Source: an uncultured Bacteroidota bacterium
GTDB lineage: Bacteria > Bacteroidota > Bacteroidia > JABEUT01
Assembly: GCA_903863935.1 (NCBI GenBank)
Contig: CAIPDV010000022.1
Location: 1-50,002 of the forward strand
Direction of reading: 5' to 3'
Length of the DNA stretch: 50,002 nt
Within the stretch, counting starts at the first letter, position 1. Every line of letters begins with the position of its first letter. A program made the position numbers and the translations under genes. Of the stretch, positions 23,933 through 29,192 are shown in pieces. The notes beneath the pieces were generated by a model. That model was not told the DNA's origin. It saw only the letters and a list, made by a program, of their open reading frames with translations, and did no database searches.

Positions 23933-25333
23933 TTATCCATCCATTTTTACAATGCGAGGGTAGAAAGTACCAAGCACATCTACAAGATTTTTTTGTGCTT
24001 TCATCACTTCGTGAATATCCTTGTAAGATTGTGGGGCTTCGTCAATGTCGCCACCAATAAGGGTTACACCATTTGCTTCAAGCATGTTTTTCATGTCCTT
24101 GCGGGTGATAGTTCTAAAAGCCTGTCCCCTGGACATAGCCCTGCCGGCCCCGTGCGAAGCTGAATTTAAGGATGCCTCTTCTCCTTTTCCACGAACAATA
24201 AATCCGGGTGCAGTCATAGAGCCGGGAATAATTCCCAATACGCCTTTACCTGCGGGTGTTGCACCCTTACGGTGAACAATAACATCATTTCCATTCCATT
24301 TTTCTTTCCATGCAAAGTTGTGGTGGTTCTCAACAATTGCTAACGGTTCCAAGGCCAAAGCGGATGCAATTTTTTTATGAATGCTATGGTGACAAGCCGA
24401 TGCATAGTCTCCTGAAAGGTTCATAGCAAGCCAGTATTCCATGCCTTCTGCGGAATCTAAACTCAACCATGCCAAATGTTTTGCCTCTTGCGGAAGTCTG
24501 CATTTTTCCATGGCAATTTTGGTGTAATGATTGGCAACATTCGCACCCAATCCCCTGGAACCGGAATGAGAAAGCAATGCTAAATATTTTCCTGCCGGGA
24601 TATTTAACTCCTCTGTAGTTTCATAAATCTCCACTTCCCCAAATTCTACGAAGTGATTACCCGAACCCGAACTTCCCAATTGTTTGGATGCTTTTTGTTT
24701 AAGCCCTTTCAGCAATTCGATTTCATCAAAAATCTTGCGGTCAATAATTTCGTTTTCCTCCGCAACTTTGAATTCCCTTCCTGCTCCAAAGAGTGTATTA
24801 TCCAAAAGGATTTTATACAAACTTCTTTTATCATGAACTGTTTTATCAGGCGAAGTGGGAAAAATACTGAGGCACATTCTGCACCCAATATCAACTCCCA
24901 CTCCATATGGAATAATGGAATTCTCAGTAGCTAGTACACCGCCAATAGGTAATCCATATCCTTGATGTGCATCGGGCAATAAGGCTCCGGCAACCGTTAC
25001 AGGAAGCCTGCTTGCAATCTCCATTTGGTTGATTGCTCCTTCTTCAATGTTACCCGCTCCAAAAATATTGTATTCCTTTTTTTGTACAAGCAAAGGAATC
25101 TCGTCGTTTGCTTCTTTTGGTTTCTCAATTAATTCATAAGCGATTTTTGCAAGAACGGGGTCTTCCAAATATTCTGCCGGTTCCGAAAGAATTTTTTTCA
25201 GAATCTCCAGTGCATTTTCGAAAGAAGTATGCTTATGTGATTTATGCATTACCTGCATGGTAATACCAATAACCTTCCCTTCGGGATAACCAATGTTCCT
25301 CAAATCTTTTCCGCTTAAATTCAGTTTAGCCAT
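23933..25333 (-). CDS. rtcB: RNA-splicing ligase RtcB
   Basis: RtcB joins RNA ends with 2',3'-cyclic phosphate or 3'-phosphate to 5'-OH ends, using GTP and Mn2+, via a guanylated histidine. The 466-residue protein shows the family metal and catalytic motifs: YGVGVDIGCRMC, SGSGNHFVEFGE, LLSHSGSRGLGANVANHY, KGATPAGKGVLGIIPGSM and NSASHGAGRAMSR, whose His (about residue 393) is the expected guanylation site. It is the last gene of a minus-strand unit that begins with rsr and includes six Y-RNA-like and two tRNA-like genes. The first tRNA-like gene lies 28 bases before the ATG. No rtcA cyclase is present. An archease gene is also not in the window. Confidence 0.96.
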   Translation of the reverse strand: MAKLNLSGKDLRNIGYPEGKVIGITMQVMHKSHKHTSFENALEILKKILSEPAEYLEDPVLAKIAYELIEKPKEANDEIPLLVQKKEYNIFGAGNIEEGAINQMEIASRLPVTVAGALLPDAHQGYGLPIGGVLATENSIIPYGVGVDIGCRMCLSIFPTSPDKTVHDKRSLYKILLDNTLFGAGREFKVAEENEIIDRKIFDEIELLKGLKQKASKQLGSSGSGNHFVEFGEVEIYETTEELNIPAGKYLALLSHSGSRGLGANVANHYTKIAMEKCRLPQEAKHLAWLSLDSAEGMEYWLAMNLSGDYASACHHSIHKKIASALALEPLAIVENHHNFAWKEKWNGNDVIVHRKGATPAGKGVLGIIPGSMTAPGFIVRGKGEEASLNSASHGAGRAMSRGQAFRTITRKDMKNMLEANGVTLIGGDIDEAPQSYKDIHEVMKAQKNLVDVLGTFYPRIVKMDG

Positions 25334-25361
25334 GATGTAAATTTATATTAAATTGTTTTTG

Positions 25362-25445
25362 TGGATGCAGAAGGATTCGAACCTCCCAAGCTTTTAGACA
25401 GCGGATTTACAGTCCGCCCCAACACTCCAACGTTGGCGTGCATCC
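25362..25445 (-). tRNA. tRNA-Tyr-like gene (anticodon GUA), non-canonical D-arm
   Basis: The fold has acceptor GGATGCA/TGCATCC, anticodon stem GCGGA/TCCGC with loop CTGTAAA, a long variable region as in bacterial tRNA-Tyr, and T-arm GGAGG/CCTTC with loop TTCGAAT. The D-arm is unusual: base 8 is C instead of the near-invariant U, and the D-stem is CCAAC/GTTGG with loop GTTGGAGT. It could be a working tRNA, a decaying copy or a mimic. The discriminator is A; CCA is not encoded. Confidence 0.75.
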
Positions 25446-25454
25446 ATATATTTG

Positions 25455-25528
25455 CGGTGCCGGACAGATTTGAACTGCCACCGCGGAGATTTTCAATCTC
25501 CCGCTCTACCCATTGGAGCTACAGCACC
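25455..25528 (-). tRNA. tRNA-Phe-like gene (anticodon GAA)
   Basis: A full cloverleaf: acceptor GGTGCTG/CGGCACC, D-stem GCTC/GAGC, anticodon stem GGAGA/TCTCC with loop TTGAAAA, T-arm GGCAG/CTGTC with loop TTCAAAT. Base 14 is C rather than A, and the discriminator is G rather than the A normal for Phe, so aminoacylation is uncertain. It lies eight bases after the last Y-RNA-like unit and nine before the Tyr-like gene. Confidence 0.82.
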
Positions 25529-25536
25529 TTATTAAA

Positions 25537-25667
25537 TTGAACGGGTAACAATGCAATAAGAGACTAATTATATGCTCTACCAACTGAGCTATCCGCCGCA
25601 GGCGGAACAGGAATTGAACCTGTGACCCCATAACCCCGAAGTAACTCTTATTTACGACACCATTCAA
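25537..25667 (-). ncRNA. Y-RNA-like unit 6, permuted tRNA opened at the anticodon
   Basis: Ends TTGAA/TTCAA pair, GGT/ACC follow, then an internal loop with GTCGTA, an eight-pair helix AATAAGAG/CTCTTATT, and TACTTCG (signature at 25637-25658). The head is a tRNA in the order T-arm (ACAGG/CCTGT, loop TTCAATT), closed acceptor hairpin TCCGCC-TGC-GGCGGA, complete D-arm GCTC-AGTTGGTA-GAGC. TATAA/TTATG acts as the anticodon stem, so the Y stem replaces the anticodon loop. Variable loop GGGTC is of normal length. Confidence 0.8.
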
Positions 25668-25673
25668 GAAGTT

Positions 25674-27903: not shown

Positions 27904-27956
27904 ATTTTCGTTTTTTTAATTCCGTTTTTGTTTGACGATACAAAAGTCTATTGCTA

Positions 27957-27977
27957 CTACGCAACCGAATTGCGCAG
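27957..27977. promoter_or_regulatory. dyad operator 1, in rsr promoter region
   Basis: TACGCAA-N5-TTGCGCA, an inverted repeat with one mismatch, centred 64 bases upstream of the rsr ATG. It matches dyad 2 in both arms and spacing and is in the right place to control rsr. Confidence 0.75.
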
Positions 27978-28058
27978 ATAAAAAGTATTTTCATTTTATA
28001 TCCTATAGCCCTGATTTACTGTGTATTTAATTTGACCTGAAAACGCACTTTTTTACCA

Positions 28059-28079
28059 CTGCGCAAATAGGTTGCGCAC
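28059..28079. promoter_or_regulatory. dyad operator 2, in WYL-gene promoter region
   Basis: TGCGCAA-N5-TTGCGCA, a perfect seven-base inverted repeat. Its right arm overlaps the TTG of the -33 element at 28072-28074. Confidence 0.8.
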
Positions 28080-28101
28080 TTGATTACTATTCTTACATTT
28101 G
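28072..28101 (+). promoter_or_regulatory. promoter of the WYL regulator gene
   Basis: -33 TTG (28072-28074), 19-base spacer, -7 TACATTTG (28094-28101). This is a full Bacteroidota consensus, with the operator lying over the -33 box, so binding there should block or alter initiation. Confidence 0.75.
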
Positions 28102-28124
28102 TAAAATCAAAATGTAATGCTCCC

Positions 28125-29192
28125 ATGCCAATAAATAAACTTGCACTTATTCGCTATAAAGTAATTGATGACTGTTTGCAAAACAGATACCGTCAATGGA
28201 CCTTAGAAGCATTGGTGGAAGCCTGTTCCGAGGCATTATATGAATTTGAAGGAATTAAAAAAGGAGTGAGCAAGCGCACTATTCAATTGGATTTGCAAAA
28301 TATGCGCAGCGAAAAATTGGGATATAATGCACCAATTATAGTAGTTGATAAAAAGTATTATACCTACGAAGATAAAAAGTACAGCATAGCCAACATTCCG
28401 CTGACAGGGCAGGATTTGAATACATTGACAGAAGTTGTTGAAGTGCTGAAACAGTTTAAAATATTTGGTTATTTTCAGGAGTTGACCGGGATGGTAAATA
28501 AACTGGAGGATAAAATATACAAACAGAAACACGACGGCAAATCCTATATCCATTTTGAACGAAATGATTTACTCAAGGGCTTGGAATTTATCGACCCCAT
28601 TCATAAAGCAATTTTGAAAAAGAAACCGCTTGAAGTCACATACCAATCATTCAGGGCAAGGGAATCAAGTACGCTTACAGTATTTCCTTATTTGTTAAAG
28701 GAGTATCGTAACCGCTGGTTTGTTCTTGCTGCTTCAAAAAGAAAATTCCGTAAACGGAATACAAATGATGTACAACTCCTCACCTTTGCGCTCGACCGGA
28801 TTGTTTCTGTAAAGGTGTTGGACGACATTCCATTTTTAGAGAATACCTTAATCGACATTGACACCTATTTTGACAATGCTATTGGCGTAACAAAAAATCC
28901 CGAAGACAAAGCACAATTGATAGTACTGAAAATAGACAGGACCAATGCTCCCTATATTCTAACCAAGCCTATCCATCCCTCTCAAAAGGTTCTTACAATG
29001 GAAAAAGATGGAATGATCTTCTCTATAGAAGTTATCTGGAACTATGAATTGGAAAGGGAGATACTCGGCTTTGGTGAGCAAATGCAAGTACTGTCTCCTA
29101 AAAAATTGAAGGGAAGAATCGGGTACAGGGCTAAGACTATGTTTGATAATTACCTGAAAAAGTCTTCGGAAGAAGAAGCTAATCAAGAATAA
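28125..29192 (+). CDS. WYL-domain transcriptional regulator
   Basis: About 355 residues. An N-terminal winged helix (about 1-75, ALIRYKVIDDCLQNRYRQWT...KKGVSKRTIQLDLQNMR) precedes a WYL domain (about 150-230, KPLEVTYQSFRARESSTLTVFPYLLKEYRNRWFV) and a C-terminal extension ending in a WCX-like segment (ILGFGEQMQVLSPKKLKGRI). WYL proteins sense nucleic-acid or nucleotide ligands and often control defence or repair genes. Here it is divergent from rsr, with one dyad site near each promoter. It takes the place of the RtcR activator found in enterobacterial repair operons. ATG 28125 is chosen because the promoter lies at 28072-28101. Confidence 0.9.
   Translation: MPINKLALIRYKVIDDCLQNRYRQWTLEALVEACSEALYEFEGIKKGVSKRTIQLDLQNMRSEKLGYNAPIIVVDKKYYTYEDKKYSIANIPLTGQDLNTLTEVVEVLKQFKIFGYFQELTGMVNKLEDKIYKQKHDGKSYIHFERNDLLKGLEFIDPIHKAILKKKPLEVTYQSFRARESSTLTVFPYLLKEYRNRWFVLAASKRKFRKRNTNDVQLLTFALDRIVSVKVLDDIPFLENTLIDIDTYFDNAIGVTKNPEDKAQLIVLKIDRTNAPYILTKPIHPSQKVLTMEKDGMIFSIEVIWNYELEREILGFGEQMQVLSPKKLKGRIGYRAKTMFDNYLKKSSEEEANQE

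Follow-up and report, generated by a model that had tools for sequence, protein, structure and literature searches.

Ro60, a Y RNA array, extra tRNA genes and RtcB in one Bacteroidota RNA-repair locus under predicted WYL control

Why would a bacterium keep a gene for a Ro60 homologue, a series of Y RNAs, two extra tRNA genes and an RNA ligase side by side? This question is raised by a 50,002-nucleotide stretch of DNA from an uncultured Bacteroidota bacterium (assembly GCA_903863935.1, contig CAIPDV010000022.1, positions 1 to 50,002), hereafter the window, meaning the whole stretch at its full length; coordinates are window positions, and G000 is the window's own genome. On the minus strand, rsr, six Y RNA units, a tRNA-Phe(GAA), a tRNA-Tyr(GUA)-like gene and rtcB follow one another head to tail in that order with gaps of about 90 bp or less, and a gene for a WYL/WCX regulator is divergent from rsr. 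These parts and their order had been proposed in an earlier note, and were confirmed here with Pfam, Rfam, ARAGORN and exact signatures, as follows.

28125..29192, plus strand: wyl, WYL/WCX-domain transcription regulator (Pfam WYL E 5e-12, WCX E 1e-9; start codon picked from homologues: MPINKLALIRYK)
26386..27903, minus strand: rsr, Ro60/TROVE-domain protein with a vWA domain carrying a DVSGS MIDAS motif (Pfam TROVE)
26176..26298, minus strand: Y RNA unit 1, GGGG...CCCC-closed module with two hairpins (exact signature at 26290; fold)
26049..26147, minus strand: Y RNA unit 2, T-arm hairpin module, T-arm only (exact signature at 26139; fold, T-arm)
25972..26046, minus strand: Y RNA unit 3, short, without tRNA-like module (exact signature at 26038; fold)
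25825..25959, minus strand: Y RNA unit 4, tRNA-mimic with T-arm, acceptor-like part and D-arm (exact signature; Rfam YrlA 22.9 bits, E 0.04)
25674..25809, minus strand: Y RNA unit 5, tRNA-mimic with T-arm and D-arm (exact signature; Rfam YrlA 26.1 bits, E 0.005)
25537..25667, minus strand: Y RNA unit 6, tRNA-mimic with T-arm and D-arm, nearest to YrlA (exact signature; Rfam YrlA 45.8 bits, E 1e-8)
25454..25528, minus strand: extra tRNA-Phe(GAA) with discriminator G73 instead of A73 (ARAGORN; Rfam 55 bits)
25362..25445, minus strand: extra tRNA-Tyr(GUA)-like gene with C8, a derived D-arm and A73 (sub-threshold Rfam tRNA-Sec match, 39 bits)
23933..25333, minus strand: rtcB, RNA ligase (Pfam RtcB 267 bits)

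From comparative sequence evidence, we propose as the rather probable answer that the locus is an inducible RNA-damage and translation-stress island, which would reseal or clear broken RNA and supply reserve tRNAs. The earlier note had already suggested that Ro60, Y RNAs and RtcB together handle damaged tRNA or other structured RNA, and the data below lend support to that general idea. It had overlooked a palindromic operator, predicted to be common to wyl, rsr, the Y array, rtcB and other RNA-repair genes. The 21-bp palindrome, CTRCGCAA-N5-TTGCGYAG, is present twice between wyl and rsr.

28059..28079, no strand: putative operator copy 1, GTGCGCAACCTATTTGCGCAG, 46 bp before wyl
27957..27977, no strand: putative operator copy 2, CTGCGCAATTCGGTTGCGTAG, 54 bp before rsr

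Over the 3.76-Mb genome of the organism, the 19-bp core has no exact match besides these two copies. Among 81 Bacteroidota rsr loci (the locus survey; loci and genomes are given L and G numbers), 78 carry the palindrome no more than 450 bp upstream of rsr, at most two mismatches being allowed, and further copies were found upstream of the Y array (15), of rtcB (11) and also of Rnl1 and RlaP genes, while a reversed-sequence control yielded 8 matches in total at a looser, three-mismatch threshold. In TROVE-negative genomes that keep a WYL orthologue, the palindrome lies directly upstream of wyl (as in G041, G087, G166, G207, G213, G256, G266 and G293), or between wyl and RtcB or Hen1-Pnkp genes. 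The palindrome thus defines a predicted WYL-controlled regulon, to which wyl, rsr, the Y array, rtcB and further genes of RNA repair would belong. RtcA and RtcR, the hallmarks of the RtcR-controlled rtcBA operon, which the earlier note had missed in the locus, are absent from the whole genome: at 98% completeness, it has no match to PF01137 (RtcA) or PF06956 (RtcR), and control searches recovered both E. coli proteins. That a WYL protein acts instead of RtcR had also been suggested, and the co-location with the palindrome supports the view that, in these bacteria, RNA repair is regulated by this protein in RtcR's place. According to a published prediction, WYL domains sense nucleotides or fragments of nucleic acids (PMC4012209).

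The Y RNA identity of the six units, likewise claimed before, withstood closer inspection. In each unit a stem strand comes first and then the 23-nt 5' strand TGNCGTA-N9-TACTTCG, which we used as the Y signature, without any mismatch in the fixed letters, and most units fold as a basal stem, a conserved bulge, a second stem and a module. Both the folds and the unit-specific pairing agree with the general architecture of bacterial Y RNAs, whose 5' and 3' ends come together as a basal stem that holds a conserved internal loop. Modules of the tRNA-like kind are likewise in evidence, units 4 to 6 having a T-arm and a D-arm and unit 2 a T-arm. The search with Rfam Y RNA models that the earlier note had recommended succeeded in part: YrlA (RF02553) aligned to unit 6 over its full length (1-114) and to units 4 and 5 across the tRNA-like part, but all scores fell under the gathering score of 69 bits (45.8 at best in the window; 41, 40 and 39 bits in relatives). 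The 'tRNA-Arg' called by ARAGORN at 25871-25959 is the tRNA-mimic part of unit 4 and was rejected as a tRNA.

The array is not a peculiarity of the window. In a survey of 295 genomes of the same class (13 TROVE-positive and 282 TROVE-negative), at least two exact signature copies clustered on one contig in 13 of 13 TROVE-positive and in none of the 282 TROVE-negative genomes, and the cluster adjoined rsr in 12 of the 13; in the exception, G089 (L184/L185, G089:C4), a seven-unit array lies 26 kb from rsr, so that array and gene are separable. In the locus survey we found 399 Y units in 77 of the 81 loci (2-9 per locus), on the rsr strand and directly downstream of the gene, or 1-3 kb downstream in Chryseobacterium. 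Absence of the array from relatives that keep rsr, which would have told against it, was looked for, and the outcome did not refute the array. Perfect 8-bp pairing occurred in 35% and 49% of the units for the two stems, as compared with 7% and 10% when partners were shuffled; hence both stems are unit-specific. Because the signature clusters only in TROVE-positive genomes and the stems are unit-specific, chance can be ruled out as the source of the array. T-arm hairpins were present in 222 of the 399 units and in no shuffled unit. Since every one of the 77 loci has a T-arm unit, and 75 also hold one or more units that have no tRNA-like module, mixed arrays of tRNA-mimicking and other Y RNAs are the rule in Bacteroidota. 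The number and variety of RNAs in one locus, which had looked new, are accordingly general among these rsr loci, and we claim no priority for the Bacteroidota Y array; Chen et al. (2014) reportedly implied several Y RNAs per species. One surveyed locus, L068, lies on a contig titled Limnohabitans (a betaproteobacterium) and groups among Flavobacterium loci in the Rsr tree; it is probably misbinned.

The two tRNA genes had been noticed before, and not that they are the small end of a recurring set of divergent spare tRNAs, which reaches about 20-29 genes in related loci. They sit within 40 bp between Y unit 6 and rtcB, and are second copies: core Phe and Tyr genes occur elsewhere in G000, as they do in G060, G028 and G095. 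With 25-33 or more other tRNAs per genome, the spare genes are additional to the housekeeping set, as in the trn type of Anabaena. The window tRNA-Phe is 68% identical to the other tRNA-Phe of its own genome, and the Tyr-like gene about 65% identical to core tRNA-Tyr. The latter was not called by ARAGORN, and Rfam gave its tRNA-Sec match under the cut-off only; its derived D-arm is nevertheless common to the locus tRNA-Tyr genes of L049, L167, L074 and L188.

In the locus survey, tRNAs adjoin rsr in 10 of 81 loci. ARAGORN found 17 and Rfam 20 tRNAs in L157 (the wider form of L050); there are 12 in L049/L069 (a Sediminibacterium metagenome-assembled genome), 11 in L052, 10 in L053, 17 in L074 (Chryseobacterium defluvii), 7 in L095, 3 in L051 and 1 each in L063 and L064. 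A near-complete set is thus not found in the window, with its two tRNAs, but occurs in the relatives L157, L180 and L188. In L188 (G095), 23 ARAGORN tRNAs for 19 amino acids, all but cysteine, lie downstream of rsr interleaved with Y units, and the stretch holds 29 of the 58 Rfam tRNA matches of G095, at least three of the 29 being weak. In several loci a tRNA-Lys precedes the last Y unit. L180 (G028:C39), from a genome without TROVE, has genes for WYL, RtcB and two RlaP proteins, after which 20 tRNA genes run on to the end of the contig; as neither Rsr nor Y RNAs are present, the locus indicates that the tRNA set can accompany RtcB alone. A nine-tRNA cluster (L166) was excluded, as it lies between rho and an aminotransferase gene and not beside repair genes, and the ARAGORN calls L094 Asn, L115 Leu and L125 Lys were dropped, as they overlap Y units, i.e. 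are Y RNAs read as tRNAs. On the Rsr tree, a quick and weakly resolved one, the tRNA trait requires at least seven changes and has therefore been repeatedly gained or lost.

Are these divergent genes working tRNAs or debris? Compared across loci, spare tRNAs share 68% identity; with core tRNAs of the same anticodon they share 61%, core tRNAs of two of the genomes concerned being 79% identical; the acceptor and anticodon stems of spare and core tRNAs are about 51-53% identical. The discriminator base is nevertheless the one found in core tRNAs of matching amino-acid specificity in 74 of 79 spare tRNAs (2000 shufflings of the labels gave a mean of 43 and a maximum of 54), in 36 of 43 in a second batch and thus in 110 of 122 over both, including 34 of 36 where the expected base is not A. 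The T-loop TTC (99%), U33 (95%) and the D-loop GG (94%) are kept, and U8 is lost in 16%. The discriminator agreement and the kept T-loop, U33 and D-loop features therefore favour working tRNAs over debris, and point to charged, working molecules. Spare tRNAs often differ from core ones at positions 32, 37 and 38 (in L157, L049, L167 and other loci); an A37 instead of the core G37 would remove the m1G37 site, a loss that is only partial, with A37 in 13 and G37 in 10 of the 23 cases where the core has G37. The spare tRNA-Leu genes at L157:15411-15752 do not have the long variable arm that bacterial tRNA-Leu usually carries. We had first supposed that spare sets consistently lack tRNA-Ala, and gave this up, as L180 and L188 contain it.

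The TROVE domain of Rsr scored 110 bits (E 1.7e-31; gathering score 23), and its profile also matches the solved TROVE and Ro60 structures 9l5y and 1yvp; vWA_Ro60 scored 21.6 bits, under its cut-off of 27.7, with the MIDAS motif nevertheless present. Against the equivalog NF041674, which needs more than 900 bits, Rsr scored 24, and by these measures it is a distant branch, outside the Deinococcus/Salmonella equivalog. RtcB retains the active-site Cys/His motifs DIGC, GNHF, HSGSRG, HHN and HGAGR when aligned to 1uc2. A scan for sigma-70 promoters and terminators gave no more matches than in shuffled sequence. In relatives, the partners besides RtcB comprise T4-type Rnl1 with PNKP, a DRB0094-type ligase, Pnkp/Hen1, RlaP, a 3'-5' exonuclease, an SPFH/Band-7 (slipin) protein and Thg1; L157 alone has eight RNA-repair genes and a retron-type reverse transcriptase. 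At the edge of this RNA-repair/spare-tRNA island (L157:17235-19986), we noted a Thg1-like 3'-5' RNA polymerase gene together with the reverse transcriptase, which is retron St85-like. Around the window locus, an S30AE/HPF gene (23574-23873) is convergent with rtcB, a NUDIX hydrolase gene (29194-29658, minus strand) is convergent with wyl, and an Rfam DUF805b RNA motif (39 bits; 22456-22490, minus strand) lies near a XerC/D-type integrase gene (22660-23535).

Parts of this arrangement are known from other systems. The Salmonella rsr-yrlBA-rtcBA operon, controlled by RtcR/sigma54 and responding to RNA damage, similarly joins in one unit a Ro60 homologue, Y RNAs with a tRNA-like domain and RtcB, whereas the window locus differs in its WYL regulator and palindrome, in the lack of RtcA and RtcR, in having six Y RNAs rather than two, and in the tRNA genes inside the unit. 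YrlA (RF02553) and the Deinococcus Y RNA (RF01053) share with the window units a basal Ro-binding stem and a tRNA-like module next to rsr, but the units score under both gathering thresholds and their module types are more varied within one array. In Anabaena PCC 7120, a 26-tRNA operon, rtcB and a slipin gene are under joint repression by TrcR, which is lifted by antibiotics that act on translation (PMC10272220). By analogy, we regard this regulon as the nearest functional precedent: it too combines a second tRNA set, silent and co-regulated in Anabaena and extra to the housekeeping one, with rtcB and slipin/SPFH. It differs in that TrcR is a ribbon-helix-helix repressor with another operator, the genes are unlinked there and linked here, and no Ro60 or Y RNA is reported in that paper (PMC10272220). 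Against defences that cleave tRNA, jumbo phages bring together in a single genome tRNAs, RNA ligases, PNKP, RlaP and, in some cases, TROVE (PMC7824862); the window locus differs in being bacterial and chromosomal and in having a regulator and a Y array of its own. In the papers that we searched, we found neither the spare-tRNA sets beside rsr nor the WYL palindrome, although this does not establish novelty. Burroughs and Aravind (2016) are said to have described modular RNA repair made of a ligase, a kinase/phosphatase, an RlaP nucleotidyltransferase and a TROVE or SPFH scaffold with its cognate RNA; near-complete tRNA sets and a WYL-operator regulon reportedly lie outside that description.

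From these comparisons we derive the following working model. The WYL regulator would bind both palindromes and control both directions, a link that is comparative, and damaged tRNA or stalled translation may release this control, much as tRNA fragments with a cyclic phosphate trigger RtcR in Salmonella (PMC7790460, PMC8394870). Owing to the close spacing and to the absence of a clear terminator, we propose a single minus-strand transcript, from which the six Y RNAs and the two tRNAs would be cut out between rsr and rtcB. Rsr presumably binds each Y RNA through the basal stem, a proposal in keeping with their co-occurrence, and the differing modules, tRNA-mimicking or not, would yield a set of distinct Ro ribonucleoproteins (RNPs). 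Elsewhere, Rsr and Y RNA tether PNPase for the decay of structured RNA (PMC7790460, PMC8394870); by analogy with Deinococcus, the Ro RNPs of the window may gate such RNases or tether them to broken structured RNA. Cleaved tRNAs or other RNAs with 2',3'-cyclic-phosphate and 5'-OH ends would be resealed by RtcB, a task that another ligase may serve elsewhere. RtcA is dispensable for the sealing chemistry of RtcB. The extra tRNAs, whose presence and identity features are described above, would replace cleaved housekeeping tRNAs and restore the pool, a component that in relatives extends to a nearly complete second set.

Several findings weigh against this model. No tRNA set was seen in the fetched flanks of 71 of the 81 rsr loci, and so the tRNAs are optional; the discriminators of L188 agree less well (16 of 23); the G73 of the window tRNA-Phe and the loss of U8 in the Tyr-like gene suggest that both could be weak or decayed; and the connection of the WYL protein with its operator rests on co-location. 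It is thus conceivable, if very unlikely, that wyl does not control the locus and that the palindrome belongs to another regulator, as 43 loci have no adjacent WYL gene; however, a full-length unlinked orthologue (48-57% identity, any second match being at most 33%) was found in 10 of the 10 such genomes tested, and the palindrome stays directly upstream of wyl even in Rsr-less genomes. More improbable still would be an ordinary rsr-Y RNA-rtcB repair operon with two tRNAs as incidental neighbours: rsr-yrlBA-rtcBA operons are already known, most rsr loci are without tRNAs and tRNA genes tend to cluster anyway, but here divergent duplicates are wedged between Y unit 6 and rtcB, the Tyr-like gene belongs to a locus-specific family with members in four other loci, and tRNAs recur inside Y arrays, as in the Lys gene before the last unit and the interleaving of L188.

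A different function for the extra tRNAs, as decoys that absorb anticodon nucleases or tRNA-modifying or processing enzymes in the manner of tRNA-mimic Y RNAs and with no need of charging, seems unlikely to us, though less so than the other alternatives. Their low identity to core tRNAs, most marked in the acceptor and anticodon stems, the occasional loss of U8, the Leu tRNAs with their missing arm and the closeness to tRNA-mimic Y RNAs all suit such a role, an idea that Hughes et al. (2020) raised for YrlA; against it stand a discriminator that tracks the amino acid, also in the non-A classes, and the conserved T-loop, U33 and D-loop, and sets with near one tRNA per codon box would be needless against one nuclease. 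We give quite a low probability to an origin of the island as a phage- or mobile-element-derived counter-defence cassette whose tRNAs and repair genes serve the element and not the host. Viral contigs do carry distant Rsr proteins (37-57%) with variant Y motifs, two IMG/VR contigs (L161 and L165, Rsr 38%) place 6-8 tRNAs immediately upstream of the gene, tRNAs occur together with RNA ligases and TROVE in jumbo phages (PMC7824862), and the distribution is patchy, with TROVE in 13 of the 295 class genomes and in 0 of 10 of the same genus. Against it, no phage structural genes were seen in the flanks read, the loci lie within long chromosomal contigs among ordinary neighbours, conservation of the regulator, the operator and the Y arrays extends over many Bacteroidota families, and the Rsr proteins of the two viral contigs with tRNAs are the most distant ones.

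Returning to the inducible island, we think the chances about even that it represents, more broadly, a WYL-controlled 'second translation kit' of Bacteroidota, i.e. a palindrome-marked regulon that would answer RNA damage with near-complete divergent spare tRNAs, Ro60/Y RNA particles and interchangeable RNA-sealing enzymes, the window being its two-tRNA version. Such a regulon would join three lines previously apart, namely Ro60/Y RNA quality control, RNA-end repair and reserve tRNA operons. For testing, it provides a defined regulator together with an operator of 21 bp, and relatives that can be cultured (Flavobacterium, Chryseobacterium, Pedobacter), and the varied Y arrays allow asking why cells need several Ro RNPs. 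As to why rsr and rtcB co-locate, the shared operator and the spare tRNAs point to tRNA loss as the common problem.

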